Assembly: GCA_003224145.1 (NCBI GenBank)
Contig: QHYN01000221.1
Location: 1-32,115, forward strand
Reading direction: 5' to 3'
Length of the DNA: 32,115 bases
Source: Acidobacteriota bacterium
GTDB lineage: Bacteria; Acidobacteriota; Terriglobia; Acidiferrales; UBA7541
The notes under the pieces are model-generated. The model had not been told where the DNA came from. It was given only the letters and a program-made list of their open reading frames with translations, and made no database searches. How positions within the stretch are numbered: position 1 is the stretch's first letter; every line of letters begins with the position of its first letter. A program made the position numbers and the translations under genes. This document shows positions 2,399-30,754 of this stretch, piece after piece.

Positions 2399-2733
2399 GC
2401 TTGATTCATATTACCGCAAGAGGGAGGAAGGACTGTCTCCAGAGGGGATTCCAGCTCCCGGAGAAGGGGAATGACGACAGATATCCTTAGACAGTTGAAC
2501 AGGTTAGGTGGGAAGGTCGAAATGAAATGGAAGTGAATTGACATCTTCCAAGCACTTGAGAAGAGTAAGTTACTAGACGCGGACAACCGAGGGGTGGGTT
2601 CGGACAGAGCGCGGGGAAAGTCCTAGAAATCGAGTTCCTTTTCAGTTGGGTCGTGGGGAGAGTGTACATGGAGCCGGGACTCTGCAAGTGACCTTCTTGG
2701 GAAAAAACAAGTCCAAAACAGGTGCCAAAAGCC
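2399..2733. other. Divergent intergenic region, 335 bp, no gene seen
   Basis: The region separates the minus-strand CRTAC1 gene from the plus-strand GH38 fragment and should hold both promoters. A TTGACA hexamer lies near 2538, but I see no convincing -10 at the right distance. No RNA gene, repeat or terminator hairpin was recognised. Confidence 0.4.
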
Positions 2734-7067: not shown

Positions 7068-7431
7068 CGGTTTCTCCTTGGGATTGAAGTTATTGGGAGC
7101 CATCTCGAAATGGAGCGCTGCGTCTTTGACGCCCGCAATGGTCGCACTCTGATAACGTGTACCGGCCACAGTCTCGTCGCGGAGACCAATCTCTAACTAA
7201 TCAGTGATTCTACCGCTGTTTGTTATACCATCCCAAATGCAATCAACTAGTGTTTGGTGGCATACCGAACGGCACGGCAGCGCGGCGCAGAGCTACAGAC
7301 CGACTGCCCAGGGCATTTCACTGCCATCGATGTCAAATCCATCGTCAGAACCAAAGGCTGTGATATAAAAATTCTTTCCAAGAACCAAGTACAGGGCACC
7401 TGTATGTTTGTCACCACGGAGGAAATCACAC
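7068..7431. other. Divergent intergenic region, 364 bp
   Basis: Lies between the Gfo/Idh gene (-) and the nagB-like remnant (+). Apart from the short palindrome listed separately and the GGAGG ribosome-binding site just before 7432, I see no gene, RNA or terminator here. Confidence 0.4.
7390..7404. promoter_or_regulatory. 15-bp inverted repeat upstream of the nagB-like gene (candidate operator)
   Basis: TACAGG-GCA-CCTGTA is a perfect 6-bp-arm inverted repeat, ending 27 bp before the GTG start at 7432. The size suits a dimeric sugar-sensing repressor of the GntR or LacI type. No cognate regulator is identified. The only regulator in the window is a DeoR protein about 8 kb away. Confidence 0.35.
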
Positions 7432-15135: not shown

Positions 15136-15232
15136 AGGACACCTCCAGAAAAAACTCGGCAAGGGTGTAACACAGTGGGAAAGCAAACGCAACAAGAAAT
15201 AAAATAAATAGGAGCCAAGAGAAAGCAGAAGA

Positions 15233-15255
15233 AAGTATTTGCAACACTCATACTT
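15233..15255. promoter_or_regulatory. Candidate DeoR operator between receptor and regulator genes
   Basis: AAGTAT-N11-ATACTT is a perfect 6-bp inverted repeat; extended to 8 bases per arm, 7 match. A third ATACTT half-site lies at 15292-15297, 42 bp further on and inside the regulator gene's -10 region. Repeated half-sites spaced by whole helical turns suit autorepression by an oligomeric DeoR-family protein. Confidence 0.45.
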
Positions 15256-15315: not shown

Positions 15316-16101
15316 ATGACCCCGAAAGCTCGCCTTCTTACGGAACAGCGGCGCCGAAACGTGTTGGATTTAGTGGATCAGGACGGCCAGGTTACCGTTG
15401 CGGACCTGGTCAAACGTTTCTCTATTTCCGCAGTAACCGTTCGCACCGACCTCGACGCCCTCGCCTCTGTCGGGGCAGTGGTGCGTTCCCACGGCGGCGC
15501 CGTGCGTCGTCTGGAAGCTACTCAAGATTACCCACTTCGCATGAAGGAGACGATTCACCGAGACGAAAAAATCAGAATCGGAAGGGCAGCGGCGGAACTG
15601 GTACGGCCAGGCGAAACCATCATTCTCGATTCGGGGACAACGACCGCGGAGATTGCCCGGCATCTGAAAAGGGTGAAAACCCAATCCCTCACAGTCATCA
15701 CGAACGCGCTGAACATCGCCGCCGAGCTTGCAGACTTGCCCAGCATCTCCTTGATCATGATCGGAGGATTGTTGCGCCCGATTTCCTGCTCATTCGTGGG
15801 ACCGCAGGCAGAAGCGATGATGAATGAGTTTCACGCTGACCGGCTTTTCTTGGCGGTTGACGGTTTCGATCTCGTGGACGGCCCTTCTACCCCGGATGTA
15901 CTCGAAGCCCAACTCAATAATGTGATGATCTGCTCGGCGCGAGAGGTGAACGTGGTCACGGACTTCAGCAAACTGGGTCGCAGGAGCGTTTCGAGGATAG
16001 GGCCCTTCGACACAATCCGGCGCCTGATTACTGATACCCGCGCGCCTCAGGAATTTACCGAAAGGCTTCGCAACCGAGGCATCGAAGTCATCGAGGTGTA
16101 G
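15316..16101 (+). CDS. DeoR-family sugar-catabolism transcriptional regulator
   Basis: 261 residues, the usual DeoR length. Residues about 10-60 are the winged helix-turn-helix (RRRNVLDLVDQDGQVTVADL ... VRTDLDALASVGAVVRSHGG). The C-terminal effector domain has the phosphosugar-sensing DSGTTTAEIARHL and ITNALNIAAELA, as in AgaR and GlpR. Such proteins repress sugar operons and release DNA on binding a phosphorylated intermediate; tagatose-phosphate or galactosamine-6-phosphate would fit here but is inferred. It is divergent from the TonB receptor gene, with the candidate operator between them, and its 3' end overlaps the convergent DUF5107 gene by 14 bp. The ATG at 15316 has only a weak GGATGGG upstream. 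Confidence 0.9.
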   Translation: MTPKARLLTEQRRRNVLDLVDQDGQVTVADLVKRFSISAVTVRTDLDALASVGAVVRSHGGAVRRLEATQDYPLRMKETIHRDEKIRIGRAAAELVRPGETIILDSGTTTAEIARHLKRVKTQSLTVITNALNIAAELADLPSISLIMIGGLLRPISCSFVGPQAEAMMNEFHADRLFLAVDGFDLVDGPSTPDVLEAQLNNVMICSAREVNVVTDFSKLGRRSVSRIGPFDTIRRLITDTRAPQEFTERLRNRGIEVIEV

Positions 16102-19100
16102 CTCCCCCTATAGCCAAACGGCTTAGGTGATAAGACATTCGCGTTTCCGGCGCAAGCAATGCTTCGTGGAGCGAAGCGTTGCCCTTCTGCGTATTTCCCA
16201 GCGCGATTTGCAAAACTCCTGCAGCATAGAGCCACCACCCCGGTGAGCTTCCGTTTCCCACGTTGGATTCAGCTTGGGACAAGGCTGCGTGGAGACACGG
16301 GCGCCACTTCGCTGGGTCATAGGCATTCAGCTTCCGAGCCGAGGCCCATGCCCAAACAATGTCCGAGGCGCTGGTCGCCTGAGCCGATCGACGATACCAT
16401 TGGCGCGCTTCCTCCACTTGGCCGCACGTTAAAGACACTTCACCAAGCAGAAAGTTGCTTCTCGCCGAATTCAGGAATGGCAATAGCCCGTCTTGCGCGA
16501 ATATCAAGTCAGGTATTGGAGCACCGAGGGACTTCGCAACGGTGAGAGCGTCTTTGCAGCGGTTTTCTCGCGCGAGTTTCAGCGCCCTTTGCAAGTTGAT
16601 TTCAATCCACACTTGACGAACATTCGTGCCGCCTTCTTCCCGGCCAAAGAAGCGATTGCGGAATAAATCCAGGGCTGCGTCATAGTTTCCTTCCTCGGCG
16701 CGGTTCAGAGCAAGTTCATACACCAATGGGGTAGGCATACGGCTCAGGTCGGGATAACGCTCCAGCACTCTCACGCGCTCCGCTGGGGATCTTCCGAGCA
16801 ATGTCATGGCGACCAGTGCGCCGGAATAATTCACGGTGTTTAGGGGATCGTTCGTTATTCCTTCTTCGAAGGCATTTAAGGCGGCTGCGAATTCGTGTTT
16901 TGCGTGGAGCAATGCCAGACCGGTGCTGGCCTCCAAAACCGGTATTTTGGGATTGATCTCTTGGGCGCGTTTCCATTCGGAGAGAGCTTGGTCCGTTTGT
17001 CCACGCGCGAAATGCCACGTTCCGAGCAGGTAGTGGGCTGATGCGTCTTTTGCATTTATCCGGATGGCGGCTCGGAGTGCACGCAGGTCTTCGATTCGGT
17101 TCGGGAAGATGTACAACGCGGAAAGGCGGGACCCGTGCAAGTAGTCATTTTGTGCGTCCTCGCCAAGCTTCTGGCGGCAATATCCACGAAAGTAGACAAC
17201 CAAAGGATGGTTCTGGGGCAGGACGGAGCCGGGCTCGGACTGATCGGCCTTTGCGCGTGGATATTCTCGAGAGAGGACGCCCACCGACTGCCGATAGAGT
17301 CCCAATCGTGCGTATTCGTAGGCAATATTCAGCACACGGTAGGGGTCGCCGCCTAAATGGGCGAGGTTCGGACTTCCAAGCTCTTCGCGGAGAAAATCGC
17401 TCAAGGGCGAGCGTGCAAGGCGATCTTTGGCCAGCGTTTGCGCTTCCGCTGTTTTTCCGAGCGTGTTCAGTACAGCTACCAATTCTTCCGCAGCGCGAAG
17501 ATCTTCGGGAGCAAATTGCAAGCTTTGTGTCAGTAACTCCTGAGCTCGTTCCAATCTACCTGCGCGCGCCTGCACTTCCGCGAGACGCATTGCGGCTGCG
17601 GCGCGCAAATCAGGCAGACGCATGGCTTCACGATAGGCGTCGGCCGCATCCTCCTCTCGTTCGAGCCCTTCATAGGCAATTCCGAGGTAGTAAGAGACTT
17701 CCGTGTCGCTAGTGTTTCTGTCATGTACCTCAATGAGTGGAGGGAGTGCCTCGTCAAAACGATTTAGGCTGGCGTCAAGGCGTCCCGCAGCTTTCGACAA
17801 TTCAAAGCTCCCCGGGAATTTCAGCAGCGCTTTTTCATACGTTTGCATTGCAGCGAGCGCGTTGCCGTTCAGCTCTTGTGTTTTCCCAAATTGAAGCCAA
17901 TCGTCCGCAGTTCTCCGGCTTTCTTCCGGGACTTTGTAGGAAACCTGGGGGCCGACTTTAATCTGGGATTCCGGCACCCAGTCATATTGACCTTCGGTCT
18001 GGCGGAGCAGCATAACGCCTTCGTTCGTCCTGATTTCGAATGTAAGATTTCTGGCGGCATTTGGAATCGGAATCTCCTTCTTCCAGACTCGCCCGGGCAC
18101 TAAATCCGCTTTTTCCTGTAGCAAGGAGATAGTCTCATTTAGATTAGTTGGATTAGCTTCATTCAGAATAGTGATGGCCGCCCCGGATATTTTCCGGTTG
18201 GCATTGAACGCGACGCTCAAAATGCCGTTGTTTCGCTGGAGATGGACCACCCCGGCAAGGTTGGCTCGGGAGATGCCGCCGGTATCACGCACCGGCATCC
18301 AATACTCCGTAAAGGACATAGTTTGCCGTGGCTCAAGAAAGGCGTACGTCTCCTGATTTCGGAAAAGACCGGCTTGCAACTCGACATAAGCGCTGTTGTT
18401 ATCCGAGAGCGCCTTTCGCCAGTCGAGCCCGTCTGCGTCCACGCCCCAAGACCAGATTTTTTTCGCTGGAACCTCGAGGTATTCGGAAAAATGCGCAGTA
18501 CCTGTATTGGAGTGGGGATTCCAGACGCCCATAAAGTCTTCCCGGCTTCCATGGACAAATAATGATACAGGTCCATCCTTCTGATTGCGTATGACGCTGA
18601 GATCTTTTCCTTGCACATCAATTGGCCATCTCTGTACCTCGGCAAATCCATGTGCGGCCGCAAAACGCATCGGGTATTGAATCCGGGAGTCGTCCCAAAC
18701 CTGCACGCCCGCATTGTTCCACCAATAAAAACGATGGCGAACGTCACTGCGGTTGCTGAGGGTGATGCGTTGCCCGAGAACTGTAGAGCCCGGATGCAGT
18801 GTCAGTTCCACGGTCCATTCCATCCCATAAACTCGGTCGACATTGCCCACAGTGACGCTCGCGCTGCCGTCCTGGTGCTGTGCGTATGCGAAGTTCACAG
18901 GCGACATCGAGACCCAATTATGGGAAACGGGAAAGTTAAACTCGACGCCAAAGGCGGCCCATGCGCCCCGATAACCAATCCGAGCCTTCTTGATGGATGG
19001 ATTCGCGTAGAACATGGGCTGCCCGTTGATCTTGTCGATGCAGGTGTAAACGTGCCCGCCCAGGTCCGGCAGCACGGAACATTTCAGGTATTCATTTTCA

Positions 19101-19375
19101 AGATAGACTGCCCGCCACTGGTGTTCCGCAGGCGTGTTGGTTATTTCGTTTCGCAGCGTATACGGATAATTGAAACGGCCTGTCGAGAATTGATCAAAAG
19201 GAGGGTTGGGGTCCGGCGCTCCCTCTTCGTACGCCGGAAGATTCAAAGCGCCTTCCCATACCTTGACTTGGCTATAAGTTGGGAGTGAACCGACAAGGGT
19301 GAGCAAGAGGGCAAACGCCCAGCGCCCCGCTCTTGTCCTGATGAGAGACTTTTGCGGCCACCGCTTCAAGCACAT
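16088..19375 (-). CDS. Exported DUF5107 and TPR-repeat protein
   Basis: 1095 residues. A signal peptide (RAGRWAFALLLTLVGSLPTYS) precedes a DUF5107-type domain (roughly residues 40-360). It is rich in aromatic residues, with ENEYLKCSVLPDLGGHVYTC, RGAWAAFGVEFNFPVSHNW and WNPHSNTGTAHF, and resembles galactose-mutarotase-like beta-sandwiches. From about residue 500 to the end are many tetratricopeptide repeats (for example ALLKFPGSFELSKAAGRLDA and ASAHYLLGTWHFARGQTDQA). Function is not established; such proteins sit in glycan loci and may bind sugar polymers. The ATG at 19375 has GAGGGG close upstream and a good signal peptide. The longer reading from TTG 19453, overlapping agaS by four bases, has no ribosome-binding site. 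It is the last gene of the minus-strand run that includes agaS. Confidence 0.85.
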   Translation of the reverse strand: MCLKRWPQKSLIRTRAGRWAFALLLTLVGSLPTYSQVKVWEGALNLPAYEEGAPDPNPPFDQFSTGRFNYPYTLRNEITNTPAEHQWRAVYLENEYLKCSVLPDLGGHVYTCIDKINGQPMFYANPSIKKARIGYRGAWAAFGVEFNFPVSHNWVSMSPVNFAYAQHQDGSASVTVGNVDRVYGMEWTVELTLHPGSTVLGQRITLSNRSDVRHRFYWWNNAGVQVWDDSRIQYPMRFAAAHGFAEVQRWPIDVQGKDLSVIRNQKDGPVSLFVHGSREDFMGVWNPHSNTGTAHFSEYLEVPAKKIWSWGVDADGLDWRKALSDNNSAYVELQAGLFRNQETYAFLEPRQTMSFTEYWMPVRDTGGISRANLAGVVHLQRNNGILSVAFNANRKISGAAITILNEANPTNLNETISLLQEKADLVPGRVWKKEIPIPNAARNLTFEIRTNEGVMLLRQTEGQYDWVPESQIKVGPQVSYKVPEESRRTADDWLQFGKTQELNGNALAAMQTYEKALLKFPGSFELSKAAGRLDASLNRFDEALPPLIEVHDRNTSDTEVSYYLGIAYEGLEREEDAADAYREAMRLPDLRAAAAMRLAEVQARAGRLERAQELLTQSLQFAPEDLRAAEELVAVLNTLGKTAEAQTLAKDRLARSPLSDFLREELGSPNLAHLGGDPYRVLNIAYEYARLGLYRQSVGVLSREYPRAKADQSEPGSVLPQNHPLVVYFRGYCRQKLGEDAQNDYLHGSRLSALYIFPNRIEDLRALRAAIRINAKDASAHYLLGTWHFARGQTDQALSEWKRAQEINPKIPVLEASTGLALLHAKHEFAAALNAFEEGITNDPLNTVNYSGALVAMTLLGRSPAERVRVLERYPDLSRMPTPLVYELALNRAEEGNYDAALDLFRNRFFGREEGGTNVRQVWIEINLQRALKLARENRCKDALTVAKSLGAPIPDLIFAQDGLLPFLNSARSNFLLGEVSLTCGQVEEARQWYRRSAQATSASDIVWAWASARKLNAYDPAKWRPCLHAALSQAESNVGNGSSPGWWLYAAGVLQIALGNTQKGNASLHEALLAPETRMSYHLSRLAIGGATPR

Positions 19376-19449
19376 TTGCCCCTCAGTATTTGATTGCGTG
19401 TCTACCAGCTCATTCGTGGGGCGCTGCCGTCTTGTTCCGGAGAGCACCT

Positions 19450-20673
19450 TCAAGAAGGAGCATGCAGGGGGAACTTTTCCACCACGCGATTGATAATCCC
19501 TTCCTCGGAGGGGGAATCGGGCAAGAGCCCCTCTCCCAGGCAGCGGAAAAATGCCAGAAGCTGCGCCACGACAACGTGTACCGTCAGATCATCGTCCTCG
19601 CCAAGCTCGCTCAATCCCCGACATTCTATGACTTCATCACCCTCTCTAACCGCGGAATCTGGAACGTTTTCACCAACGATGACTTTGAACAGTCCGAGTT
19701 TCTTGCGATCCAATTCGTGTAACAAATCCAATTCATACGCACGAATCATGGGATCGCACGATAGGTGACAAACAATCAACGTGTCATCGTGTACGCAACT
19801 CATGGGGCCGTGTCGAAAGCCCAGATACGTTTCGCAAACCGTGGTTACCCGGCCGGCGGTCAGTTCCAGCATCTTCAATGCCGCCTCGCGCGATGCCGCG
19901 AAACGCGACCCGCTGCCAAGAAACACCGCACGCCGGAAATCCGCAGCGGCAATCTTTGCCAGCAGGTCAAATTTTGACTGTACCAGTTCTCTGGTTATTT
20001 GGCTCAGCCTCTCGCACAGCATGCGATACTGATCCGGTCGTTCGAGCATGCCCATGAACCGCACAGCCAGCAAAAGGTTGGTGAAGCTGCTCGTCATGAC
20101 GAGACTCTTATCATGCGTTTCGCTGGGAAGCGTGATGACTCGCACGTTCCTATTCTGGAGCCATGCCTTTGCCAATCTTCCTCGCTCGTTGCACGTCACC
20201 ACAACGTGCCGAATTTGGGGTTCCGTGCCCAATAGCAATTCAACGACCCCGCTGCTCTCCGGGCTGTCCCCCGACCTGGCCACAGAAACAAGCAATCCGG
20301 GCCTACCGGCAGGAAGAGCTTTCGCTCCATACATTAGCAATGCACCGCCGCTGATCGATTCCGTGTGTATGCCCCGCTCATTCTGTAGAGGGTAACGCAC
20401 GCATTCAGCCGCGTACTCTGAACTCCCAGATCCCGTGAGCGCCAGGCTCTGAATACCTTTCAAGTCTTCCCTCAGTCCATCTCGCGAAGCGATCATTCGC
20501 GCGCACGTGCGTAGCCACGTCCAAGGCTGCTGGCAGATTTCCTGAAGCGTGTGGAAGTAACCCAGCCGCCTCTGCTCCGCTTCCGACCGCCCAAACAATT
20601 CCTCGGCCCTTGCCTGATCCTTCACCAAGGCCCGTTGCCAGTCTAACTGCGTCAACAGGTAAGTACTGTTCAT
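19450..20673 (-). CDS. agaS: AgaS-type SIS-domain sugar-phosphate isomerase/deaminase
   Basis: 407 residues with two SIS domains. The first contains LALTGSGSSEYAAECV (77-92) and LLVSVARSGDSPESSGVVEL (127-146). The second contains FLGSGSRFAASREAALKMLEL and the AgaS-typical ETYLGFRHGPMS. In characterised pathways AgaS turns galactosamine-6-phosphate into tagatose-6-phosphate and ammonia, in the cytoplasm. That product is the substrate expected for the LacC-like kinase at 9322-10302, so the two loci form one route although they lie in separate operons. It is preceded by the Asp-box gene (39 bp) and followed by the DUF5107 gene (74 bp). The start ATG at 20673 has only a weak purine-rich site upstream. 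An aldose/ketose isomerase role without deamination is the main alternative. Confidence 0.85.
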   Translation of the reverse strand: MNSTYLLTQLDWQRALVKDQARAEELFGRSEAEQRRLGYFHTLQEICQQPWTWLRTCARMIASRDGLREDLKGIQSLALTGSGSSEYAAECVRYPLQNERGIHTESISGGALLMYGAKALPAGRPGLLVSVARSGDSPESSGVVELLLGTEPQIRHVVVTCNERGRLAKAWLQNRNVRVITLPSETHDKSLVMTSSFTNLLLAVRFMGMLERPDQYRMLCERLSQITRELVQSKFDLLAKIAAADFRRAVFLGSGSRFAASREAALKMLELTAGRVTTVCETYLGFRHGPMSCVHDDTLIVCHLSCDPMIRAYELDLLHELDRKKLGLFKVIVGENVPDSAVREGDEVIECRGLSELGEDDDLTVHVVVAQLLAFFRCLGEGLLPDSPSEEGIINRVVEKFPLHAPS

Positions 20674-20712: not shown

Positions 20713-22989
20713 CTAACGCCCGGGTTGAAGCTGCGGGGTCATAATGTCGAGCGGGTGATCTTCTCCGTCCACGGAGCCATACCAAACGCCACCGCCGAAA
20801 GTTGTAATGTAGACTTTTTTCGGGTCCTGCGGATCAGGAATGACCCGATGCCCCCATTTGAAGTTGAAGCCCGGTATGCGCGTCCAGTTCTCACCCCGGT
20901 CCTCGGATCTCCAAGCGGAGGACTCAAATCCCGCAGCATACAGAATGTTTGGGTTGCGAGGATCAATCGTCACATCATAAATGTGGCGGTCGCGATCGAG
21001 CACTTGCCTCCAAGTTTTGCCTGCATCCTCCGACAAGTAGATGCCGCCGCCATCCCCGTGTTCTCCTTTATCCCGTGCCCATGCCGCAAGATAGAGACGA
21101 TCCGGTGTGTTGGGATCGATTGCCAAGCCATTCGGACCATTGCTTGCCTGGGGCATTGCTACACGCGTCCAGCTTTCTGCCCCGTTGCTGGATTTGTAGA
21201 TCGCACCATCACCCTCGGTCCCGATACTCCCGTCTTCGGAACGTCGCGCTACGAGAACGTAAAGCGTGCCCCTAGTGTCTCTCACGATTCTCCAGGCAAA
21301 TGGTTCTTTTTGCGTAATGCCTGCATTTTTCAGCGTCCAGTTCTTCCCTCCGTCCGTACTCTTGTATACACCGCGCCCGAACGCGGCAACATAGAGGACG
21401 CGCGCATCAGGCGGGCTAGTGGGAGCCAGCAAGATGTGCGTGGCCGCGGTTTGCTCCATTCCGTCATTGGATTTTGTCCACGTCCTTCCGCCATCATCGC
21501 TGCGGCATACTCCGCCACGATAGTCTCGAATCCCTTTCCTCCTCCACATCTTTGGCCGCGGCAAATCATGCGTCCAGCTATTCACACTCCACACGCGACC
21601 CTTCACTGCGGGATCAAATTCGATCCAATACGTCGTATTCATCCAATCTTTGGGCACGCCCTGCGTGGAACTCATCCAGGACTGCCCGCCGTCTTCGCTG
21701 CGGAAGAGGCCTATGTCCGTTGTGGAAATGAACTGCCGGTTGTGATCAAACGGGTCAAAATGGTAGCCGTAGGCGTTCGTGACATCGAGCCCGGTGCTAG
21801 TCCAACCACTTTCCCCTGACCTTCGCGAATACACAGCAACCCAATTTGCGCCACCATCCGTCGTGCGCATGGTTCTTCCTAAGTCTGTCCCGTAACTTAC
21901 ATTGGGGTCCTGGTCTGCGACAGTAAGTGCGAGTGGATTCTCTCCCCAATCCGGTCCAAATCGCTCTGTGATCCATGCATCGTGAATATTGGGCGCGGAT
22001 TTAGCAGCGGGATGGCTGTCTTCTTTCCAAACCAATTGCCAGGTTCGCCCTGCATCCGTCGTTTTGGCTACTCCCAACCATTTGATTCCACTTTCTTCCA
22101 AACTATTGTAGGAAACATAAGCCGTATCGGGGTTACGGAAGCTCGTTGCAATGGCCCGCATCTTTGCATTCCCTTGTCCCAAACTCACCTTCCGCCAAGT
22201 TTTGCCTTCGTTGTCGGATACATAGGCTGATTCGTTCCCCACCACGTAAATCACCGGTTGGCCATTCTTGGAGAATCCCGCCGAGATATCTGAGAACGTT
22301 TTCGCTGCGGGCGCCGGAAGCTTTTGGATCCCCGTCGAGGTTTTCTCCGCGATGAAATGCGGACCGGCAACCAGAAGTATTCGCGCGTCAGGCGGTGAAC
22401 TCGGATTAATCCAAACTTTGTTGGCCAGTTCCGGCAAATCACCTTCCTTCGTCCAGTTCTGGCCAGCGTCTCGAGAGACAAAAAGGGCAGAGGTCCCTCT
22501 TTTTCTGTCGCCTGCGGCCACATACAAGACCTTTGAATTGCCAGGATCAACGGCCACCGCTGTGATGCTACCCAGCGGATTTGGCTCAGCGATTAGTTCT
22601 TCGTCGGAATGGTCGGAACTCATTTTGATGCTCTTTACCGAAGATGGCTTTGGATAAAACAGATTCCAGGTCGCGCCTTGGTCCTCGCTCCGCCACAAGC
22701 CATTGGATTGAGCGTAGATCACCTTCTTGTCCAGCGGATCAAAAACAAAAAACTGTGCAACACCTCGTAGATTGAACATGCGCCAGGACTTGCCGCCATC
22801 CTGGGTGATGTAAGCTCCGGTCATGTCGCAACCGACCAAAACTGTATTGGGGTCGTGAGGGCTGACCGTTGGATGGAACATGGCCCCGCCACCACCGGGT
22901 CCAATAACTCGGAAATTCCCAGGACGGTGGTTTTCGCCAGTGGCTAGAAGTAGGGCCCCCAACAGAAATCGAAGAAAGAAAAGTGTCAT
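20713..22989 (-). CDS. Exported Asp-box (BNR) beta-propeller protein, sialidase/GH74-like fold
   Basis: 758 residues beginning with a signal peptide (LFFLRFLLGALLLATG). At least twelve Asp-box motifs of the S/T-x-D-x-G-x-x-W type run the length of the protein (TQDGGKSW, SEDQGATW, SRDAGQNW, SDNEGKTW, TTDAGRTW, TTDGGANW, SEDGGQSW, SDDGGRTW, STDGGKNW, SSNGAESW, SEDAGKTW, SEDRGENW), pointing to one or two seven-bladed propellers as in GH74 xyloglucanases and sialidases. No sialidase arginine triad or certain catalytic Asp pair can be assigned by eye, so hydrolase activity is unproven. GAGG seven bases upstream supports the ATG at 22989. It lies between the amidohydrolase and agaS genes on the same strand. 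Confidence 0.85.
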   Translation of the reverse strand: MTLFFLRFLLGALLLATGENHRPGNFRVIGPGGGGAMFHPTVSPHDPNTVLVGCDMTGAYITQDGGKSWRMFNLRGVAQFFVFDPLDKKVIYAQSNGLWRSEDQGATWNLFYPKPSSVKSIKMSSDHSDEELIAEPNPLGSITAVAVDPGNSKVLYVAAGDRKRGTSALFVSRDAGQNWTKEGDLPELANKVWINPSSPPDARILLVAGPHFIAEKTSTGIQKLPAPAAKTFSDISAGFSKNGQPVIYVVGNESAYVSDNEGKTWRKVSLGQGNAKMRAIATSFRNPDTAYVSYNSLEESGIKWLGVAKTTDAGRTWQLVWKEDSHPAAKSAPNIHDAWITERFGPDWGENPLALTVADQDPNVSYGTDLGRTMRTTDGGANWVAVYSRRSGESGWTSTGLDVTNAYGYHFDPFDHNRQFISTTDIGLFRSEDGGQSWMSSTQGVPKDWMNTTYWIEFDPAVKGRVWSVNSWTHDLPRPKMWRRKGIRDYRGGVCRSDDGGRTWTKSNDGMEQTAATHILLAPTSPPDARVLYVAAFGRGVYKSTDGGKNWTLKNAGITQKEPFAWRIVRDTRGTLYVLVARRSEDGSIGTEGDGAIYKSSNGAESWTRVAMPQASNGPNGLAIDPNTPDRLYLAAWARDKGEHGDGGGIYLSEDAGKTWRQVLDRDRHIYDVTIDPRNPNILYAAGFESSAWRSEDRGENWTRIPGFNFKWGHRVIPDPQDPKKVYITTFGGGVWYGSVDGEDHPLDIMTPQLQPGR

Positions 22990-23081
22990 CTCTTTCCTCT
23001 GCTTTCGTTATCATTTTGTTTCGCTTTCCTTCTTTGGCAGAATCTCCTTACTTTGTCAATCTCTTTGTCTGCTTCGAAAAC

Positions 23082-24296
23082 TCACACCCTTACTTTGACC
23101 TGCAAGAGCCGAGCGGCATTTTCGTAGTAAACCTTCTTGAGGATATCATCCGGCAATCCGAGACCATAAATCCGCCAGCGTCCTTGAGGCGGTACCCGTG
23201 CGGGCGCGTAATCGAAGTATTCGTCTTCGGTTTCCAGAAAGCGGTAATAGATTTCATACAGTTGGTCGCTGAAGATCTGTTGCGGGGTGTCGGTCCCGTG
23301 AGGAACCGCGTCCGTGCCGAATAGTATTCGATCCTGATATTTGTCAAAAAACTTCCTGGTCATACGCGGTTGGCGTCCAAGCTCTCCAATTCGTGCGCCT
23401 AACTCCACGTGCATGTTGGGGAAGCGATCCATGCATTCACCGACGTAGGGAAGATTTTCGGCGTTATTGCCTACATGGAGCACGATGAACTGCGTCTTAG
23501 GGTGGCGAGCCAAGACGTGGTTGCGCGCCTCCAACAGTTCGGCGTTACTGGGAAAATCGCCGCCGTAAAAAGACCAATCCGGATGATTATTCAATTCCTC
23601 GAAGCGCTCGTTGAAACGGTCGATGGGCAGAAAGAAAGCTTCCGGATCGGAAACGTGTATCGCCACAGGAATACCCAGCGACCCGCACGCTTCCCACATG
23701 GCATCGAAGCGTTTGTCATCTACTTTCACGAGTGGACCCGTCGAGATTTTCTCGCGCAAGTAGAGTCCCAGCGTTTTAAGAACCTTCAATCCGCGTGCGC
23801 CCACTCGGTGGGCGCGAACAATCTCATCCGCCTGAAATTGACTGTATCCCGGTTGATTTGAGCGCTCCCACCAAGGCTCCGTGAAAGTCAAAAAGCGGTC
23901 GGGATGTGGCGTCTGAAACTTTTGAATGGCTTCATCCAGCCCTTTCCCGACTCCACCGGTGAGGTTGATCATAATGCGGATGTTCTTCCGATCCATGAGG
24001 GGAAGCACCGCCTCGACTGGAGCGGAATATTGCATCTCCTCGCCTATGCCAACACCGTGTGTATGTTTGGCGACCGTGGAAAGGTGTGTATGGATATCAA
24101 TCAGCGGGTAGCGTGACCGCTCTACCTTCGTTTCTGGAACGTGGAGCATGCTACGCGGTTCAAAGTCCGCAAGCAGTAGCGGCTTGACTGGGTTTGGTTC
24201 GGCGCCCGACGCAGTTATGTTGCCGATGCGGATTCCGCCGGCGGCCAAAAAGACTCCCGCGCTTTCCAACAGCCGTCGCCTGCCCATTGTGCCCAT
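23082..24296 (-). CDS. Exported metal-dependent amidohydrolase (amidohydrolase-2 family)
   Basis: 404 residues. The N-terminus MGRRRLLESAGVFLAAGG resembles a twin-arginine signal. The TIM-barrel metal site is visible as IDIHTHL (H69, H71), VAIHVSDPEA (H214), FIVLHVGNN (H274) and LFGTDAVPHG (D329), the order expected for the ACMSD-like amidohydrolase-2 group. These enzymes decarboxylate or hydrolyse small ring compounds, lactones or carboxylates; the substrate cannot be read from the sequence. It is not of the NagA/AgaA deacetylase type. AGGAGGG about five bases before the ATG at 24296 supports the start. It is the first gene of the run with the Asp-box and agaS genes, but a 92-bp gap before 22989, containing a TTGACA, may hold a second promoter. 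Confidence 0.87.
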   Translation of the reverse strand: MGTMGRRRLLESAGVFLAAGGIRIGNITASGAEPNPVKPLLLADFEPRSMLHVPETKVERSRYPLIDIHTHLSTVAKHTHGVGIGEEMQYSAPVEAVLPLMDRKNIRIMINLTGGVGKGLDEAIQKFQTPHPDRFLTFTEPWWERSNQPGYSQFQADEIVRAHRVGARGLKVLKTLGLYLREKISTGPLVKVDDKRFDAMWEACGSLGIPVAIHVSDPEAFFLPIDRFNERFEELNNHPDWSFYGGDFPSNAELLEARNHVLARHPKTQFIVLHVGNNAENLPYVGECMDRFPNMHVELGARIGELGRQPRMTRKFFDKYQDRILFGTDAVPHGTDTPQQIFSDQLYEIYYRFLETEDEYFDYAPARVPPQGRWRIYGLGLPDDILKKVYYENAARLLQVKVRV

Positions 24297-24386: not shown

Positions 24387-24474
24387 ACAGCAGGTTCAGT
24401 TTTTGCTGGAGGTCAACGGAGTGCTCGATGAGGCTGCACTCCGCCTTCGACGGTCACATGGCAGGAACGCACTG

Positions 24475-25236
24475 ATGTTTGCTTCCACAACACGACTCTG
24501 GCTCGCCGCTGTGGGCCTGGCGACGTTCACGGTTCTCGCAATTCTTGCCGCTTGTCCAGTTGCCGGTGTGCCGGAGCAGGCCTATTCCGGCAGCGTTGAA
24601 CTCGAAGCAAGACGTTCTTCCGTGGAACTCGTGCCGGACGGCGATCTCGCTAAGCCTACGTGGAAGCATACCAAATGGGTAGAGTTTGACAACGATGCCT
24701 CAGGCAAGTCCCATTACCCCGAAGCTACAACCCGTGTGGCATCCGTTTGGACAGAAACACATATCTACTTTGCGTTCTGGAATCGCTACGATTCGCTGAA
24801 CATTTATGATGGTGAAGATCCGAAGACGGAACGATGGCAACTTTGGGATCGTGACGTCGTTGAAGTCTTCCTGAACCCTCAACCCGATCGCGTGAATCAT
24901 TACTTTGAGTTTGAGGTAGCCCCGAATAACCAGTGGTTGGACCTGGAGATCGACAAGAACAAAGATCCCTTCAACGATCCGTCATGGAATTCCGGCTTTG
25001 TGCATGCAACTCGGATCGATGCTGAGCATCACATCTGGACCGCCGAAATGCGCATACCGCTTGCGTCGATGAACGTGAAAGAAACTCATCCCGGAATGCA
25101 ATGGCGTGTCAATTTATTCCGGGCCGCAGGAAAGGGCGCCGACGATCACCGCAAGTTTCTGGCCTGGAGCATTATTCCCGAAGGAAAAACATTTCATGTG
25201 CCGACGCGGTTTGGAACCTTGAAGCTTGTGAACTAG
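24475..25236 (+). CDS. CBM9-like (DOMON-fold) carbohydrate-binding lipoprotein
   Basis: 253 residues from ATG 24475. The N-terminus has one hydrophobic helix ending in a lipobox (LAAC, Cys27), so it is probably a lipoprotein. The body fits the carbohydrate-binding family 9-like fold: TETHIYFAFWNRYDS, ERWQLWDRDVVEVFLNPQ, YFEFEVAPNNQWLDLEID, WTAEMRIPLASM and MQWRVNLFRAAG. Such domains bind reducing ends of sugars; here it stands alone, so it may be a surface glycan-binding or accessory protein. An alternative GTG start at 24421 has an excellent GGAGG eight bases upstream and would add 18 residues; I cannot exclude it, although the shorter form gives the more regular signal. It is convergent with the tandem hydrolase gene. 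Confidence 0.85.
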   Translation: MFASTTRLWLAAVGLATFTVLAILAACPVAGVPEQAYSGSVELEARRSSVELVPDGDLAKPTWKHTKWVEFDNDASGKSHYPEATTRVASVWTETHIYFAFWNRYDSLNIYDGEDPKTERWQLWDRDVVEVFLNPQPDRVNHYFEFEVAPNNQWLDLEIDKNKDPFNDPSWNSGFVHATRIDAEHHIWTAEMRIPLASMNVKETHPGMQWRVNLFRAAGKGADDHRKFLAWSIIPEGKTFHVPTRFGTLKLVN

Positions 25237-25282: not shown

Positions 25283-27316
25283 TTAATGTATGTAGGCTCC
25301 GGATGGCAGTAGATACTGAATCGGCCAGATCTCGCGCTTTTGCTCCACGATTTCAGACCATTTCAAGGATTTCCTGTTTGACTCTGGCAGGAGTTTTAGT
25401 CCGGGTAGCGTTTCGGCCACAGCGCTTGCGAGCGTGTACGCGTCTCCGGCGGCGGTAACAGCAACCGCTTTCGCGTGCAGTTTCTCAGTAGCAAATCGTC
25501 TGGCGATTTCCGCATCCTCAATCATTTGCAAAAAATACGGTCTCCCGGTCAGAAGCGAATTGTAGACATAATTCGCCAGTACGCCGGAAACGGAATTGAC
25601 ATAGGCGTGCTCGAAGTCCAGCCGGCCCAGGAGCGGATCGTCCGGGGAGACCGCCGTGTAAGGCATTCGCGTCTCGCCGAGCCCGCGAAAATCAAACGAG
25701 ACAATGTCGTAGCCCTGGTTCAAATATTTTTCGATCTCCGGCCAATCCTCCGCTGTTGCTTTGCCATTTTCCCAGAACCACATCAAAACAGTCCGGGGGC
25801 CGGCGCCGGATTTGTGAATATGCAGAAGCGGCATTTCGAGCTGCTCGCTGTGATGCAAGACATAACGGTCAATCGACGCCTCTCCAGCTTTTGAGCTGCC
25901 CACTGCTTCCCAGGTGATCTGGCCAGCTTGCGGAGGAACGTTCCTGTATTCGCTTACACTCCAATTTCTAACGCCGCTGTATTGGCCTCCGTAGTATTCC
26001 TCGGAAATTGTCCGCGTGTTTCTACTCTTATGCTCGTAATAGTATTCCCGGATCATGTCCATCAATGATCTTGCATCTGCGTAATCGATCAGGACTTGCC
26101 CGGTTCGAGTGCATCGCAATTCTTCCCCGTCCAGTTCCTTCACGGAAGGAAGGCCCTCTCGCACCGGCATCTGATTGAAGCGGTCGAGAAAGTCCAGCGC
26201 GGCTTGCTGATTCTCGCTGGAGTACTGATGCTGGTGATAGCCTTCGACGAGCGCGATTCGATCTCCGTGTCCGAATCGCGCATACAGTTTTTGTAATTCC
26301 CTAAAGGTTTTACGCGTCCCTTCGATAGGGAAGAAATCGAGCACGGCGGCCGCCACCAATACAGGCCGGGGGTACATCAGCAGCAGCAACCCTGGATGGT
26401 CTACTCCGTTGGAAATCATGCCGAACAAATCCTGCTCAGGATCGCTGTCCGGATCAACAAAAATGCGGTTAGACATCCGCATTGGCAGCGCCGTGATATA
26501 GCACGACGGCACGACTACTTTGATGCGGGGATCAAGCACCGCAATGAGGACGGTTTGCGTTCCTCCGCCGCTTGTGCCGGTAATGCCAATTCGCTCGCCG
26601 TCGACTTCCGGGCGCGTTAGGAGGTAATCGACGGCGCGAATGCCGTCCCATGCTTCCCATCGAGCAAGATTTGCTCCCGCCAAATAGGCCAGGTTGCCCA
26701 TCACCGCGTGCTCGGCGCAGATCAAGTTGTAGCGGCTCTTTCGGGCTTTCGGATCCCAGAACTGACTGCGCTCGCCCTGCCCCACGGGATCCCAGGAAAT
26801 CACCACGTAGCCGCGTCCTGCCAATCTCTGGCTCAGCGCCTGATAGTGAAATTTCCCATCAGCCGCATGCCCCGCAGGCACCAGCACCGCCGGATGCTTG
26901 GTCGTGTGGTCATTCGGAACGTAAACGAGCGCGGTGACATAGACGCCTGGCAAACTCTGGTAAACGAGTTTTTCAATAACAAATCCATCCATTTGAATCT
27001 TGCCGGTGATCACCGGGTGCAGATCGGTCTTTACGGCAGGCAGGCCGCCAATCATTTGCAGGAGTTTTTGCCGCAACTCATCTTGTGTCTTCAATAGGGC
27101 CGCCTCGTCCCGGATAGCTTCCCACGTTTTTTGCCGTGCCTCGTCCTGCTTCCAGGCTTGCTCCTCTTGATATCGCAGGTACGGCGTGATACGCGGACCC
27201 TGTGGCAAAGGCTCCTTTACCACTCGGAAAACCTGCGGTGGAGGAGAGTCGGTTCCGGTCAGCGAACAAAACGCACTCGCTACTGCCAGCAGCACACCGA
27301 TGCATGTCCGGATCAC
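25283..27316 (-). CDS. Exported two-domain alpha/beta-hydrolase (acetyl-xylan-esterase-like)
   Basis: 677 residues with an N-terminal hydrophobic segment (CIGVLLAVASAFCSL). The first alpha/beta-hydrolase domain, about residues 90-390, has VISWDPVGQGERS, a nucleophile elbow GTSGGGTQT, and a late acidic/His region VEGYHQHQYSSENQQA. The second half repeats the fold (VLMWFWENG, YDIVSFDFRGLGET), but where the elbow should be it reads VTAAGDAYTLAS with no Ser, so it looks catalytically dead. Likely a carbohydrate or acyl esterase acting outside the cytoplasm. The start is GTG at 27316, giving a GTGA overlap with the stop of the DUF4832 gene; the longer frame to 27352 is rejected for that reason. 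Translation is thus coupled to the gene upstream. Confidence 0.83.
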   Translation of the reverse strand: MIRTCIGVLLAVASAFCSLTGTDSPPPQVFRVVKEPLPQGPRITPYLRYQEEQAWKQDEARQKTWEAIRDEAALLKTQDELRQKLLQMIGGLPAVKTDLHPVITGKIQMDGFVIEKLVYQSLPGVYVTALVYVPNDHTTKHPAVLVPAGHAADGKFHYQALSQRLAGRGYVVISWDPVGQGERSQFWDPKARKSRYNLICAEHAVMGNLAYLAGANLARWEAWDGIRAVDYLLTRPEVDGERIGITGTSGGGTQTVLIAVLDPRIKVVVPSCYITALPMRMSNRIFVDPDSDPEQDLFGMISNGVDHPGLLLLMYPRPVLVAAAVLDFFPIEGTRKTFRELQKLYARFGHGDRIALVEGYHQHQYSSENQQAALDFLDRFNQMPVREGLPSVKELDGEELRCTRTGQVLIDYADARSLMDMIREYYYEHKSRNTRTISEEYYGGQYSGVRNWSVSEYRNVPPQAGQITWEAVGSSKAGEASIDRYVLHHSEQLEMPLLHIHKSGAGPRTVLMWFWENGKATAEDWPEIEKYLNQGYDIVSFDFRGLGETRMPYTAVSPDDPLLGRLDFEHAYVNSVSGVLANYVYNSLLTGRPYFLQMIEDAEIARRFATEKLHAKAVAVTAAGDAYTLASAVAETLPGLKLLPESNRKSLKWSEIVEQKREIWPIQYLLPSGAYIH

Positions 27317-28782
27317 TTGGCTTTCACCGTGAGCGAACCCATGGCATACCATCCGTCCGCTTGACGCCCCTCGACCGCAAGGCGAATCGCGGGCTGTCCT
27401 GTTCTTGGATCCAGAATTCCAATGCTAACGTCGTAGTTGCCTTCCGGCAGATTCTCTGGGACGTACAAAGTGCCGTCGAAGACGGCATCGCCTGGAAGCC
27501 ATTTGCGAATATCCACGGGAACTTGAATCACAGCCGCCGTTTGAGATGACCGCAATTCCATGGCAAGCTTGAATTCTTTGTAAATCGGTGCGACTCCCTC
27601 GTTCAGCCACCACATATGAACCGGCATCATTGTTCCGGGATTGACTACCCGCGAATATTCCAGCCGCCGCAGATTGAATCGATACCCGATCTTTTTCTGA
27701 AAAGTGTCGCACTGATTCTTCCACTCACTCGGTATTGGCGCGGATTTGATGTTCACTGTGCTCACGTGCCAGCGCAGCGCTTGATCGAGAATGTAATCAA
27801 GGTCGTAGCCCCTTTCCTTCCAACCGGCCACCGTGTAGCAAGTTTCTAGCGAAACGGGCTTGCGCTGCCAAACGTCCTGAATTCCAGCGCGCGCCACCTG
27901 CTGCGGGTAAATCTCCAGCATTTCCGCAGGGAAATAGGGATTCGTTGAACTTGTTCGCATGTCCCCGAGGCAATCCAGTCTCCACCCTGCGCCATGTTCC
28001 GTACCGTAGGTGAGCGCGTGTTGCTCGTCAAAGTTCATCAGCAGCGTAGTTCGCGGGAAAGCCTCGAGCCAGATGTCAATCAGTTGCTTTTGATATGGAA
28101 ATGCGGGCATGTAAGGGCTCCAACCTTCTCCCCAGTAGCCCACAGAAGAAATGTCCACGCTGTCGAGATAGGGGTTCCCGTCGTATCGCTTTCCGGCCTC
28201 AGCCACAAGCTCGCCCCAATACTTGATATAGAGCGGATCGCTGAAATCCGGCTGCCAAATTTCGCCGTCCTTGTCCTTGGGTTTGTTGGCGCGTCGCGCC
28301 CCGGACTTCCGATACCACTCCGGGAGAGGATCTTGGTTAGAGTACGGCATCAGACGAATCGCAAGCGTTTGCCCGTGCGCTCGCGCCTCTTCCAAGGCAA
28401 GATCCACAATCTCCCAATGAAACTTGCCGGGCTCGGGCTCGAGAACATTCCAATACCAGCGGCAATAGGAGATGGATGTGTCGGGGAAGTCGGGTTTTGT
28501 CGGCGCTTGCGGCAGTTTCGTCACGGGCCCTACTTCGGACCATTTCAAGGGTGGATTTGGTTCTTGTCCATTGAATCTTTGAAACGTGGTTATGCCCATT
28601 CCGGGGTTTACGAGCACATCATGAATCCCTTTAGGGCGAACCACCACGACGTTGGATTGCGCAATTGCCTGGTTTCCGGCTACAAGCGAAAAGAGAATCA
28701 AGAAACAGCAAGGGTTTGTAATTTTGATGAATTGTGCACCACCGTTTTTGCGGAACTCAAATTCCATCAATGACCGAGACAT
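27313..28782 (-). CDS. Exported DUF4832-type TIM-barrel protein, glycoside-hydrolase-like
   Basis: 489 residues. A signal segment (NPCCFLILFSLVAGNQAIAQ) is followed by a barrel-like domain with LVNPGMGITTFQRF, YCRWYWNVLEPEPGKFHW, DISSVGYWGEGW and LLMNFDEQHAL. The C-terminal beta domain (about 380-489: MPVHMWWLNEGVAPIY ... YDVSIGILDPRTGQPAIRLA) is characteristic of DUF4832 proteins. The barrel resembles GH42/GH5-like enzymes, with acidic residues in W-N-V-L-E and N-F-D-E at plausible positions, but activity is not known. The ATG at 28782, with GGAG eight bases upstream, is preferred to the GTG at 28818. It lies 85 bp after the PQQ dehydrogenase gene and overlaps the hydrolase gene by four bases. 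Confidence 0.82.
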   Translation of the reverse strand: MSRSLMEFEFRKNGGAQFIKITNPCCFLILFSLVAGNQAIAQSNVVVVRPKGIHDVLVNPGMGITTFQRFNGQEPNPPLKWSEVGPVTKLPQAPTKPDFPDTSISYCRWYWNVLEPEPGKFHWEIVDLALEEARAHGQTLAIRLMPYSNQDPLPEWYRKSGARRANKPKDKDGEIWQPDFSDPLYIKYWGELVAEAGKRYDGNPYLDSVDISSVGYWGEGWSPYMPAFPYQKQLIDIWLEAFPRTTLLMNFDEQHALTYGTEHGAGWRLDCLGDMRTSSTNPYFPAEMLEIYPQQVARAGIQDVWQRKPVSLETCYTVAGWKERGYDLDYILDQALRWHVSTVNIKSAPIPSEWKNQCDTFQKKIGYRFNLRRLEYSRVVNPGTMMPVHMWWLNEGVAPIYKEFKLAMELRSSQTAAVIQVPVDIRKWLPGDAVFDGTLYVPENLPEGNYDVSIGILDPRTGQPAIRLAVEGRQADGWYAMGSLTVKAK

Positions 28783-28867
28783 CCTGAACTCTCCGTCCCC
28801 TCGAACAAGTCGGAGCACACTCTATCGCTCCACATTCATCTCTTCAATATTTGACGTTCTGCACGGT

Positions 28868-30754
28868 CTATTTGTCCGGGAGTGTAAACGCCGCAAGGGT
28901 ATCGGATACTTTGCCTCTGAAATATCCGCCTCCTCCGGCAGCGATCACTACAAATTGCTTGCCCGTTTTCTTACCCATATAAGTCATCGGCGTGGCGTGC
29001 GCGCTGGCTTCCAGGTTGGTGACCCACAGTTGCTCCCCGGTTTTCGCATCGAATGCGCGAAAACGGCTATCGATCGTCGCCCCGATAAATACTACTCCGC
29101 TGTCCGTCACAATCGTCCCGCCAAGGTTAGGTGTACCGGTAGTCTCCTTCAGTTCGTCGACAACCCCTAGTGGCACTTTCCAAACAATCTCCCCCGTATT
29201 CACGTCCACCGCGCTGAGCGTTCCCCATGGTGGTTTCTGACATGGCCATTGGTGCTCGTCCCAGAAGCGGGCATACTCCCCTTCTTTGGAACCTCTCCGG
29301 TATCGCACTGGTGCCTCGGCAGCTTGCGGTTCCATTGCTCCAACGGCGGCCAAGTCATTTGCATTGACAAACAAGAAGCCGGAAGCACTATCAAAAGACG
29401 CACCGGACCAGTTCGCCCCGCCCAGCGTGCCGGGCATCACTAATGTCATCTTGCGACCGTAGGGTGTGTACATTCCATGGCTCTCGAGCGAATGAAATAG
29501 TTGAGCGCAATAGCGGTTGGATTCCGGTGTGATGGTGCTGATGTCGCCTTCGCTCAACGACTGTCGAACAAGAGGCGGAGGCTTGAGCGGAAAGGGCTGT
29601 GTCGGCCAGGCAGCTTCCCCGGGCACATCGCTTTTGGGAACCGGGCGTTCCTCCACCGGAAATAGCGGTTTCCCTGTAAGCCGGTCCAGGATAAACACAA
29701 ATCCCATCTTCGTAAGCTGCGCAATCGCGGTAATATCCCCGCCATCGCGCCGCACCGTGATCAGCACGGGTTGCGCAGGCATGTCGTAATCCCAGATATC
29801 GTGGTGCACCATCTGGTAGTACCAGACGAGTTTGCCGGTTGCGGCGTCCAGCGCCACTAGACAGTTGCCGAACAGATCCCGACCCTTGCGGTCTCCGCCG
29901 TAGAAATCATACGAAGCCGACCCGATGGGCAGAAAAGCCAAACCGTGTTCTAGGTCTACGCTCATGATCGACCAGACATTCACGCCGGTGCGCTCTTTCC
30001 ACGCATCTCCCTCCCAACTCTCGTGCCCTGGTTCTCCCGGCCGAGGAATCGTGTGAAAGGTCCAAACAAGTTTGCCCGAGCGAACGTCAAACGCGCGCAC
30101 CTCCCCACTTGGTCCTTTGGACGGATATTCAGGAACCGCCGCCCCTGTAATGACCAAGTCTTGGTAGATGGCAGGAGGCGACGTCACCGAGTATTCCGCA
30201 CGAGGATAAGCGTCCGCAATCCCTGCGCGCAGATCGACCCAGCCGTCTTTTCCAAATTCGCGGCAAGGTTTTCCGGTCTTCGCATCCAGGGCGATTAAGC
30301 GCGCGTCGAAAGTGCCGTACAGAATCCGGCTTTCTCCTCCGGCCTTACTCTGCCAGTAGGCTACACCGCGGTGTTGAAAGAACTGGCGGGGCCCGGCGCG
30401 CCCCCCTTGCGGATCGAACCGCCAAATCTCCTGGCCAGTTTCCGCATCCAGCGCAATCACACGATTGGAAGGAGTCGAGAAGTAAAGCACTCCATCAATC
30501 ACGATTGGCGTGGACTCAAATGGAACAATGTGATGCCGGTCCATTTCGTTGCCTCTGCGGTCCAGCTCTCCCATATGATACGTCCATGCTCTCTTCAAGT
30601 TCTTAACGTTTTGACGATTGATTTGTTTGACTGGAGACGATCGCGTTCCGCCTGGGTCGCCGCCATAAAATCGCCATTCTTGCGCTGAGACGGTTGGGGA
30701 CAGGGCCATCATAACTAGAATCCTGCTTACTGAATTTGGGCTGATCATCCACAT
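28868..30754 (-). CDS. PQQ-dependent dehydrogenase (quinoprotein, GDH-like), no haem domain
   Basis: 628 residues with an N-terminal signal (ISPNSVSRILVMMALSPTVSAQ). Propeller-blade motifs typical of PQQ enzymes recur: GEIVWKVPLG, GKLVWYYQMVHHDIWDYD, GQEIWRFDPQGG and AFDAKTGEQLWVTNL. HDIWDYDMPAQPVL and GGANWSGASFDSASGFLFVN are hallmarks of the membrane-type glucose/quinate dehydrogenase group. There is no CxxCH, so it has no own cytochrome domain. It would oxidise an alcohol or aldose in the periplasm and pass electrons to quinone or a separate acceptor. The ATG at 30754 has no clear ribosome-binding site. It heads a run of three minus-strand genes, including DUF4832 and the tandem hydrolase. 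Confidence 0.9.
   Translation of the reverse strand: MWMISPNSVSRILVMMALSPTVSAQEWRFYGGDPGGTRSSPVKQINRQNVKNLKRAWTYHMGELDRRGNEMDRHHIVPFESTPIVIDGVLYFSTPSNRVIALDAETGQEIWRFDPQGGRAGPRQFFQHRGVAYWQSKAGGESRILYGTFDARLIALDAKTGKPCREFGKDGWVDLRAGIADAYPRAEYSVTSPPAIYQDLVITGAAVPEYPSKGPSGEVRAFDVRSGKLVWTFHTIPRPGEPGHESWEGDAWKERTGVNVWSIMSVDLEHGLAFLPIGSASYDFYGGDRKGRDLFGNCLVALDAATGKLVWYYQMVHHDIWDYDMPAQPVLITVRRDGGDITAIAQLTKMGFVFILDRLTGKPLFPVEERPVPKSDVPGEAAWPTQPFPLKPPPLVRQSLSEGDISTITPESNRYCAQLFHSLESHGMYTPYGRKMTLVMPGTLGGANWSGASFDSASGFLFVNANDLAAVGAMEPQAAEAPVRYRRGSKEGEYARFWDEHQWPCQKPPWGTLSAVDVNTGEIVWKVPLGVVDELKETTGTPNLGGTIVTDSGVVFIGATIDSRFRAFDAKTGEQLWVTNLEASAHATPMTYMGKKTGKQFVVIAAGGGGYFRGKVSDTLAAFTLPDK

Follow-up and report, generated by a model that had tools for sequence, protein, structure and literature searches.

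The window analyzed here, 32,115 nucleotides in length, is one whole contig (QHYN01000221.1, GenBank assembly GCA_003224145.1) of a 4.8-Mb genome of an Acidobacteriota bacterium, whose nearest named relatives in our genome scan were Acidobacteria gp2 metagenome-assembled genomes. Three genes lie consecutively on its minus strand, in the order of a pyrroloquinoline quinone (PQQ)-dependent dehydrogenase (28868-30754), a triosephosphate isomerase (TIM) barrel with a DUF4832 domain, which is a candidate glycoside hydrolase (27313-28818), and a tandem alpha/beta-hydrolase with a GTG start (25283-27316). An earlier note on this DNA had given the same coordinates and gene order, and the open reading frames of the window bear them out, as they do the reported overlap of the last two genes by GTGA: the GTG at 27316 overlaps the TGA of the DUF4832 gene by 4 bases, and an ATG that lies 12 codons earlier (27352) is open as well. 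The GTGA junction recurs in 5 of 13 relatives, and the remaining 8 have the two genes still adjoining but with the hydrolase start 11-74 bases further downstream. The N-termini of all three products resemble signal peptides when judged by eye, consistent with the note's view that they are exported. The trio is the end of a ~22-kb, ~13-gene cluster that is syntenic across a gp2 acidobacterial genus, and the earlier frame of three genes was too small in that it missed this larger galactosamine-type cluster, which suggests a substrate class.

The DUF4832 protein matched PF16116 with 75.8 bits (gathering cut-off 29.2), and its predicted model (predicted local distance difference test, pLDDT, 91.1) consists of a TIM barrel and a C-terminal beta-sandwich, with most of the DUF4832 match falling in the latter. 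Two glutamates were invariant in 53 of 53 sequences: E231 (codon 28126-28128), which lies after strand 4 in GYWGEGW, and E325 (codon 27844-27846), on strand 7 in SLET. The best fold matches of the barrel were GH14 beta-amylases (Z ~20, 280 residues, 9-14% identity), followed by GH42, GH35 and endoglycoceramidase (Z ~16). By strand placement in the model, E231 and E325 may correspond to the catalytic Glu pair that GH14 enzymes carry at the ends of strands 4 and 7. The Pfam matches of the barrel included no GH14 family at E 0.001, and a sequence search of solved structures with the barrel gave at best E 0.12. GH166, GH114 and GH135, known hydrolase families of galactosamine (GalN) polymers, were not named among two listings of 50 fold matches each, an absence that is uninformative. 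The invariant glutamates after strand 4 and on strand 7 support the note's description of the barrel as glycosidase-like, and the model makes the protein a candidate glycoside hydrolase of a little-studied, presumably polymer-cutting type.

Domain 1 of the hydrolase (~residues 55-400) contains GTSGGGTQT and a complete triad, S249, D327 and H363, that was invariant in 21 of 21 aligned hydrolase sequences. In the AlphaFold 2 model of the protein (pLDDT 79.2; predicted template modeling score, pTM, 0.81), the best fold match of this domain was BT1017 (6goc; Z 37.1, 340 residues, 23% identity), followed by two putative Bacteroides esterases (Z ~30) and by CE15 glucuronoyl esterases (Z 23-28). The combination of alpha/beta-hydrolase fold and Ser-Asp-His triad found in domain 1 is that of the BT1017 family, CE19. 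Domain 1 is thus predicted to be an active domain of esterase type, in agreement with the active-looking first domain of the note. In CE19 a zinc site with two Cys and two His ligands lies beside the active site (PMC7939467).

The second domain (~residues 450-677; 25283-25969, minus strand) is homologous to the first (hhalign probability 99.0, E 3.1e-17) and so a true repeat. S249 aligns with G624 of VTAAGDAY, and the model shows an elbow strand (616-622) and a helix (624-636), after which the chain ends ~50 residues past G624, so that the strands for the acid and the His cannot follow in the usual order. No conserved Ser was found at the nucleophile position of domain 2 in 15 orthologues; one of them, L008, has a Ser beside that position (TASGDAY), and its domain 2 ends at the same place, so that the remainder of the triad is missing as well. 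Among 16 wider-family relatives, several of which extend further at the C-terminus, no GxSxG nucleophile was in register in domain 2, the serines of GWSAP in L089 and GTGSV in L097 lying one or two residues off the elbow register. A check for a nucleophile Ser elsewhere in domain 2 also found none. The note's dead second half is real, but it characterizes the tandem family as a whole and not the operon: the inactive domain is an old feature found throughout the family, and in this hydrolase it is additionally truncated. That it might be a device peculiar to this operon was considered and rejected, as it is common to all relatives compared.

The dehydrogenase matched PF01011 with 742.6 bits and TIGR03074 with 579.2 bits, the latter under the cut-off of 832.65 because the membrane part is missing (the match begins at profile position 149). 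It appears to be a glucose/quinate-type propeller without the membrane domain, and to be exported. D319 and K349, by analogy with solved quinoproteins the predicted catalytic Asp and PQQ-contacting Lys, were conserved in 14 of 14 sequences. The same genome holds pqqE (495.7 bits, cut-off 381.35) and pqqC (334.5 bits, cut-off 240), so the host can make the cofactor; an apo or "empty" quinoprotein in a host without PQQ was rejected on these grounds, and the oxidising quinoprotein of the note gains support, as far as can be judged from conserved residues and gene content. In the genome G017, the PQQ orthologue (G017:C155:84108-85919) has one in-frame TGA.

The remainder of the cluster extends from the hydrolase toward the low coordinates of the window. 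Convergent with the hydrolase gene, and conserved in the cluster, is the gene of a CBM9-like carbohydrate-binding protein (24403-25236, plus strand; PF06452, 43.2 bits). The minus strand then encodes an Amidohydro_2 protein with a Tat-like N-terminus (23082-24296; PF04909, 80 bits), for which no solved relatives were found; a GH74-like BNR/Vps10 propeller (20713-22989; PF15902, 127.9 bits; NF045728, 144.9 bits with a cut-off of 175; E 2.2e-10 to PDB 6p2m, presumably a GH74 enzyme); an AgaS-family SIS protein of the galactosamine-6-phosphate deaminase/isomerase type (19450-20673; TIGR02815, 256.7 bits; PDB 3odp, E 5.9e-61); and a DUF5107 and TPR protein (16088-19453; PF17128, 216.1 bits). An AgaR-like repressor of the DeoR family lies on the plus strand (15316-16101), its 257 bits to NF040755 being under the cut-off of 260 and at the top of the 12 families listed. 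Back on the minus strand are an Oar-like TonB-dependent receptor, a candidate for oligosaccharide uptake recognized by synteny and assigned to its family by eye (11446-15195); a LacD-type tagatose-1,6-bisphosphate aldolase (10295-11296; NF009498, 387.9 bits over a cut-off of 184; PDB 3iv3, E 3.6e-88); a PfkB protein of the 1-PFK/LacC type, a candidate tagatose-6-phosphate kinase, whose reading frame start overlaps the aldolase (9322-10482; TIGR03168, 232.8 bits over 216.4); and a PfkB sugar kinase, a candidate galactosamine kinase with a homologue near AgaS in other loci (8365-9303; PF00294, 166.6 bits). Judged by these profile matches, the AgaR-like, AgaS-like, PfkB and LacD genes would constitute a route from galactosamine-6-phosphate to tagatose.

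A truncated copy of the last kinase at the other contig end (31268-31909, plus strand) is 79.8% identical to residues 99-311 of the 8365-9303 protein and is without its first 98 residues. The window further contains a GH38-type mannosidase fragment (2722-3699, plus strand), which matched profile positions 1-49 of 270 before the frame ends, and a Gfo/Idh protein with a Tat-like start (5733-7169, minus strand) that is nearest to glycoside 3-dehydrogenases (BT_2158 family, 78.7 bits; PDB 8tdf, E 6.1e-12).

Between the genes for the TonB receptor and the repressor lies a putative AgaR operator with GAAAG repeats (15218-15239, plus strand), recognizable in 7 of 7 aligned sequences. The AgaR matrix was built from 7 hand-picked sites, and its best match in the window (15218) is its own training site; the next best is a weaker match (22988-23009, minus strand) directly upstream of the Vps10-AgaS-TPR genes, with a score of 15.7 as compared with a maximum of 15.5 in 20 shuffles. 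A motif match was also present at most 60 bases upstream of the Vps10 gene in 11 of the 12 relatives holding that gene. These motif matches make AgaR control of the AgaS arm likely.

Full or nearly full orthologues of the DUF4832 protein and the hydrolase were held by 15 of the 36 genomes of the genus, and trio orthologues within the genus were 64-88% identical. The hydrolase gene follows the DUF4832 gene in 15 of 15 (in G011 across a contig break, and in G005 with the DUF4832 gene partial at a contig edge). The PQQ gene precedes it in 14 of 15 assessable genomes, a count from which G005 is excluded, as its contig ends before the PQQ position, and in which G029 is included on the strength of a DUF4832 fragment and an 88% PQQ gene, a criterion set after seeing the data. 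Same-genus neighborhoods of up to 20 kb kept the cluster order, and the LacD-PfkB-PfkB end was kept in 7 of 7 further stretches reaching it (L158-L164), with the exceptions that the TonB receptor had diverged in L160 and L161 and that AgaR was not among the listed matches in L164; G004 and G030 were without an intact AgaS in place. At a second place in G029 (G029:C447, locus L056), a diverged hydrolase (35%) adjoins a DUF4832 fragment (38%), a possible paralogous pair.

Scanning the named genomes yielded 87 relatives; 80 loci were retained, 14 of them from the genus and 66 from elsewhere (Acidobacteriota and one Sorangium). A homologue in these loci was counted if it reached 80 bits and 40% cover, and as many loci are short contigs the counts are lower bounds. 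The 66 outside loci contained a TonB-type receptor in at least 23 cases, Amidohydro_2 in at least 19, the hydrolase family in at least 12, Gfo/Idh in at least 10, DeoR/AgaR in at least 8, CBM9 in at least 7, AgaS and TPR in at least 6 each, PQQ, PfkB2 and a GH36-type protein in at least 5 each and Vps10 in at least 4, with no PfkB1 and no aldolase. In 4 of the 6 AgaS-bearing outside loci the AgaS homologue lies within 500 bases of the DUF4832 gene. In one AgaS-bearing locus (L140) a protein passes the cut-off for an AgaZ-type aldolase subunit, and in Granulicella mallensis (L128, 8347-9792 and 5291-6739) a GH109_C protein is encoded directly upstream of DUF4832 and AgaS directly downstream, with a GSDH-type dehydrogenase nearby. 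Outside Acidobacteriota, the Sorangium cellulosum chromosome carries a DUF4832 orthologue (54%; L134), whose neighborhood yielded no other reference gene of the window and, for two tested neighbors, no Pfam match. In L141 and L143 the DUF4832 gene is split across two frames.

Across a phylum sample of 297 genomes, DUF4832 was found in 8 genomes (E <= 1e-50) and the AgaS family in 29 (E <= 1e-30), with 6 shared. AgaS was thus present in 6 of 8 DUF4832 holders vs. 23 of 289 others (Fisher p 1.3e-5), or in 5 of 7 holders with the genome of the window excluded (p 9.8e-5), whereas the control, xylose isomerase, was present in 2 of 8 vs. 41 of 289 (p 0.33); these tests ignore genome relatedness, so that the p-values overstate the significance to an uncertain extent. 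Within the genus, AgaS was found in 12 of 16 cluster holders vs. 2 of 20 other genomes at a cut-off of E < 1e-60, which was picked after seeing that the values form two groups (1e-65 or better, 1e-36 or worse).

Bacterial biofilms and fungal hyphae are stuck together by galactosamine polymers, Pel in the former and galactosaminogalactan in the latter. Our preferred explanation, which we hold at a probability of about 0.5, is that the trio is the exported, degradative arm of a conserved catabolic cluster for galactosamine-containing glycans, with the DUF4832 protein as a glycoside hydrolase acting through E231 and E325 on an alpha-linked polymer rich in GalN or N-acetylgalactosamine (GalNAc). 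The barrel would cut a polymer of the Pel or fungal galactosaminogalactan kind, E231 serving as the catalytic acid and E325 as the nucleophile or base. What the esterase and the quinoprotein do in the cluster can only be guessed: hydrolase domain 1 may belong, as a serine carbohydrate esterase, to the CE19/CE15/CE7 group and strip off ester groups, its dead domain 2 being retained for structure or binding, and the quinoprotein may oxidise the released sugar or alcohol in the periplasm, with the Amidohydro_2 protein perhaps opening the resulting lactone. Imported galactosamine would be phosphorylated by a PfkB kinase and deaminated by the AgaS-type enzyme to tagatose-6-phosphate, which would be phosphorylated again and then split by the LacD-type aldolase, the pathway standing under AgaR control. 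What the computation shows is the gene order, the triad, the missing nucleophile of domain 2, the barrel fold with its invariant Glu residues, the cytosolic genes and the association with AgaS; the catalytic activities, the substrate and a cooperation of the exported enzymes are inferred.

Several results weigh against this explanation. The 256.7 bits of the AgaS protein compare with a TIGR02815 cut-off of 529.2, which is passed in none of the 297 phylum genomes, and as only 6 of the 66 outside loci have AgaS, the majority of DUF4832 genes lie in other settings. Among the DUF4832 holders of the phylum sample, the alpha-GalNAc enzyme family GH109 was not enriched (3 of 8 vs. 70 of 289, p 0.41), and the closest solved esterase, BT1017, acts on methyl-esterified uronates, which gives no pointer to GalN. 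The motif scan upstream of the PQQ gene gave no AgaR-type site, either in the window (-3.0) or in 10 scannable relatives (best 8.4, in L071; the rest <3), so the trio may fall outside the AgaR regulon. The G004 locus is without the PQQ gene, and none of the 66 outside loci has a PQQ homologue within 500 bases of DUF4832, so that the trio as such is not kept there; a hydrolase homologue lies within that distance in only 2. The conserved linkage of the three genes expected by the earlier note thus holds within the genus but not beyond it. Its further proposal of stepwise de-esterification, cleavage and oxidation outside the cell agrees with the predicted enzyme types and with their adjacency in the genus; neither trio linkage beyond the genus nor sequential action on one substrate is supported.

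In the strongest rival account the cluster breaks down a mixed heteroglycan of plant or bacterial origin, rich in uronate and similar to pectin or hemicellulose, with GalN as a minor part at most; the esterase would take off methyl esters of uronates or glucuronoyl esters, and backbone cleavage would fall to the Vps10/GH74-like protein. Domain 1 has the pectin methylesterase BT1017 and, lower in the ranking, CE15 among its best fold matches, and the GH74-like propeller and CBM9 are modules of plant-glycan type, but in place of uronate or pentose genes the cytosolic part consists of AgaS, LacD and PfkB together with an AgaR-like regulator, and it is AgaS, not xylose isomerase, that co-occurs with DUF4832; we consider this account unlikely. 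It is also rather improbable that the PQQ dehydrogenase and hydrolase are neighbors by history only, a lineage-specific insertion beside DUF4832 with unrelated substrates. The near restriction of trio linkage to one genus, the lack of an AgaR-type site upstream of the trio and the loss of the last-two-gene overlap in 8 of 13 relatives would fit such an insertion, yet within the genus both adjacencies are nearly invariable at 64-88% identity, hydrolase-family genes occur in 12 of the 66 outside loci, and in L121 a 58% PQQ homologue stands together with TPR and Amidohydro_2 genes. That the barrel trims or releases the cell's own exopolysaccharide in a non-catabolic role, as proposed for Pel-operon hydrolases, accords with the DUF4832 genes described from Pel synthesis operons of streptococci and clostridia (PMC7112168), but it is highly improbable here, with no polysaccharide synthase recognized in the window and with catabolic enzymes and a TonB-type receptor as neighbors.

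If galactosamine-glycan catabolism is indeed the function of the cluster, a domain of unknown function (DUF4832) would gain a substrate class and a catabolic role, a very common soil phylum would gain a niche, open to testing, on the matrix of fungi and biofilms, and matrix-cutting enzymes would have a new source. A bolder claim, which we advance tentatively and with the balance somewhat against it, is that DUF4832 TIM barrels are an unrecognized GH14-like family for alpha-1,4-galactosamine polymers and that soil Acidobacteriota loci built around them feed on Pel or fungal galactosaminogalactan via AgaS and LacD. A 2026 study describes a rise of Acidobacteria around wild-type Verticillium that was smaller around a mutant in VdGtb, a gene of galactosaminogalactan synthesis, and suggests that nutrients or a physical platform lie behind it (PMC13245733).

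The barrel resembles GH14 beta-amylases in fold and, as far as strand placement in the model shows, in its Glu after strand 4 and Glu on strand 7, and differs from them in carrying the C-terminal DUF4832 beta-sandwich. Hydrolase domain 1 has the fold of the catalytic domain and the Ser-Asp-His triad in common with BT1017, which carries DUF3826 where the present hydrolase has a dead alpha/beta-hydrolase copy and which belongs to a different genomic setting. The cytosolic genes recall the aga/gam regulon of Escherichia coli, where mutants in agaS no longer grow on GalNAc and GalN, and where AgaS was proposed to be the GalN-6-phosphate deaminase/isomerase (PMC3668189). An AgaR-like repressor, an AgaS-family deaminase and a tagatose-bisphosphate aldolase step are common to the two, whereas in the present cluster LacD replaces KbaYZ, no phosphotransferase system gene was recognized in the window, the arrangement being kinase-based and TonB-linked, and no NagA-type deacetylase lies in the cluster, one being found on contig C324 instead. 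The barrel, as a predicted hydrolase, has a relative by domain content in SIR_1591 of Streptococcus intermedius, which likewise joins a TIM barrel to DUF4832 and is encoded in a pel operon (PMC12345266). According to that report, purified SIR_1591 breaks up preformed aggregates of Pel, as the PelA hydrolase domain does, and cell-free Pel is alpha-1,4-linked, partly de-N-acetylated GalNAc (PMC12345266). Already published as a hydrolase acting on Pel aggregates, SIR_1591 belongs to a polysaccharide synthesis operon, whereas the gene of the barrel described here stands among genes of sugar catabolism and that of a TonB receptor.

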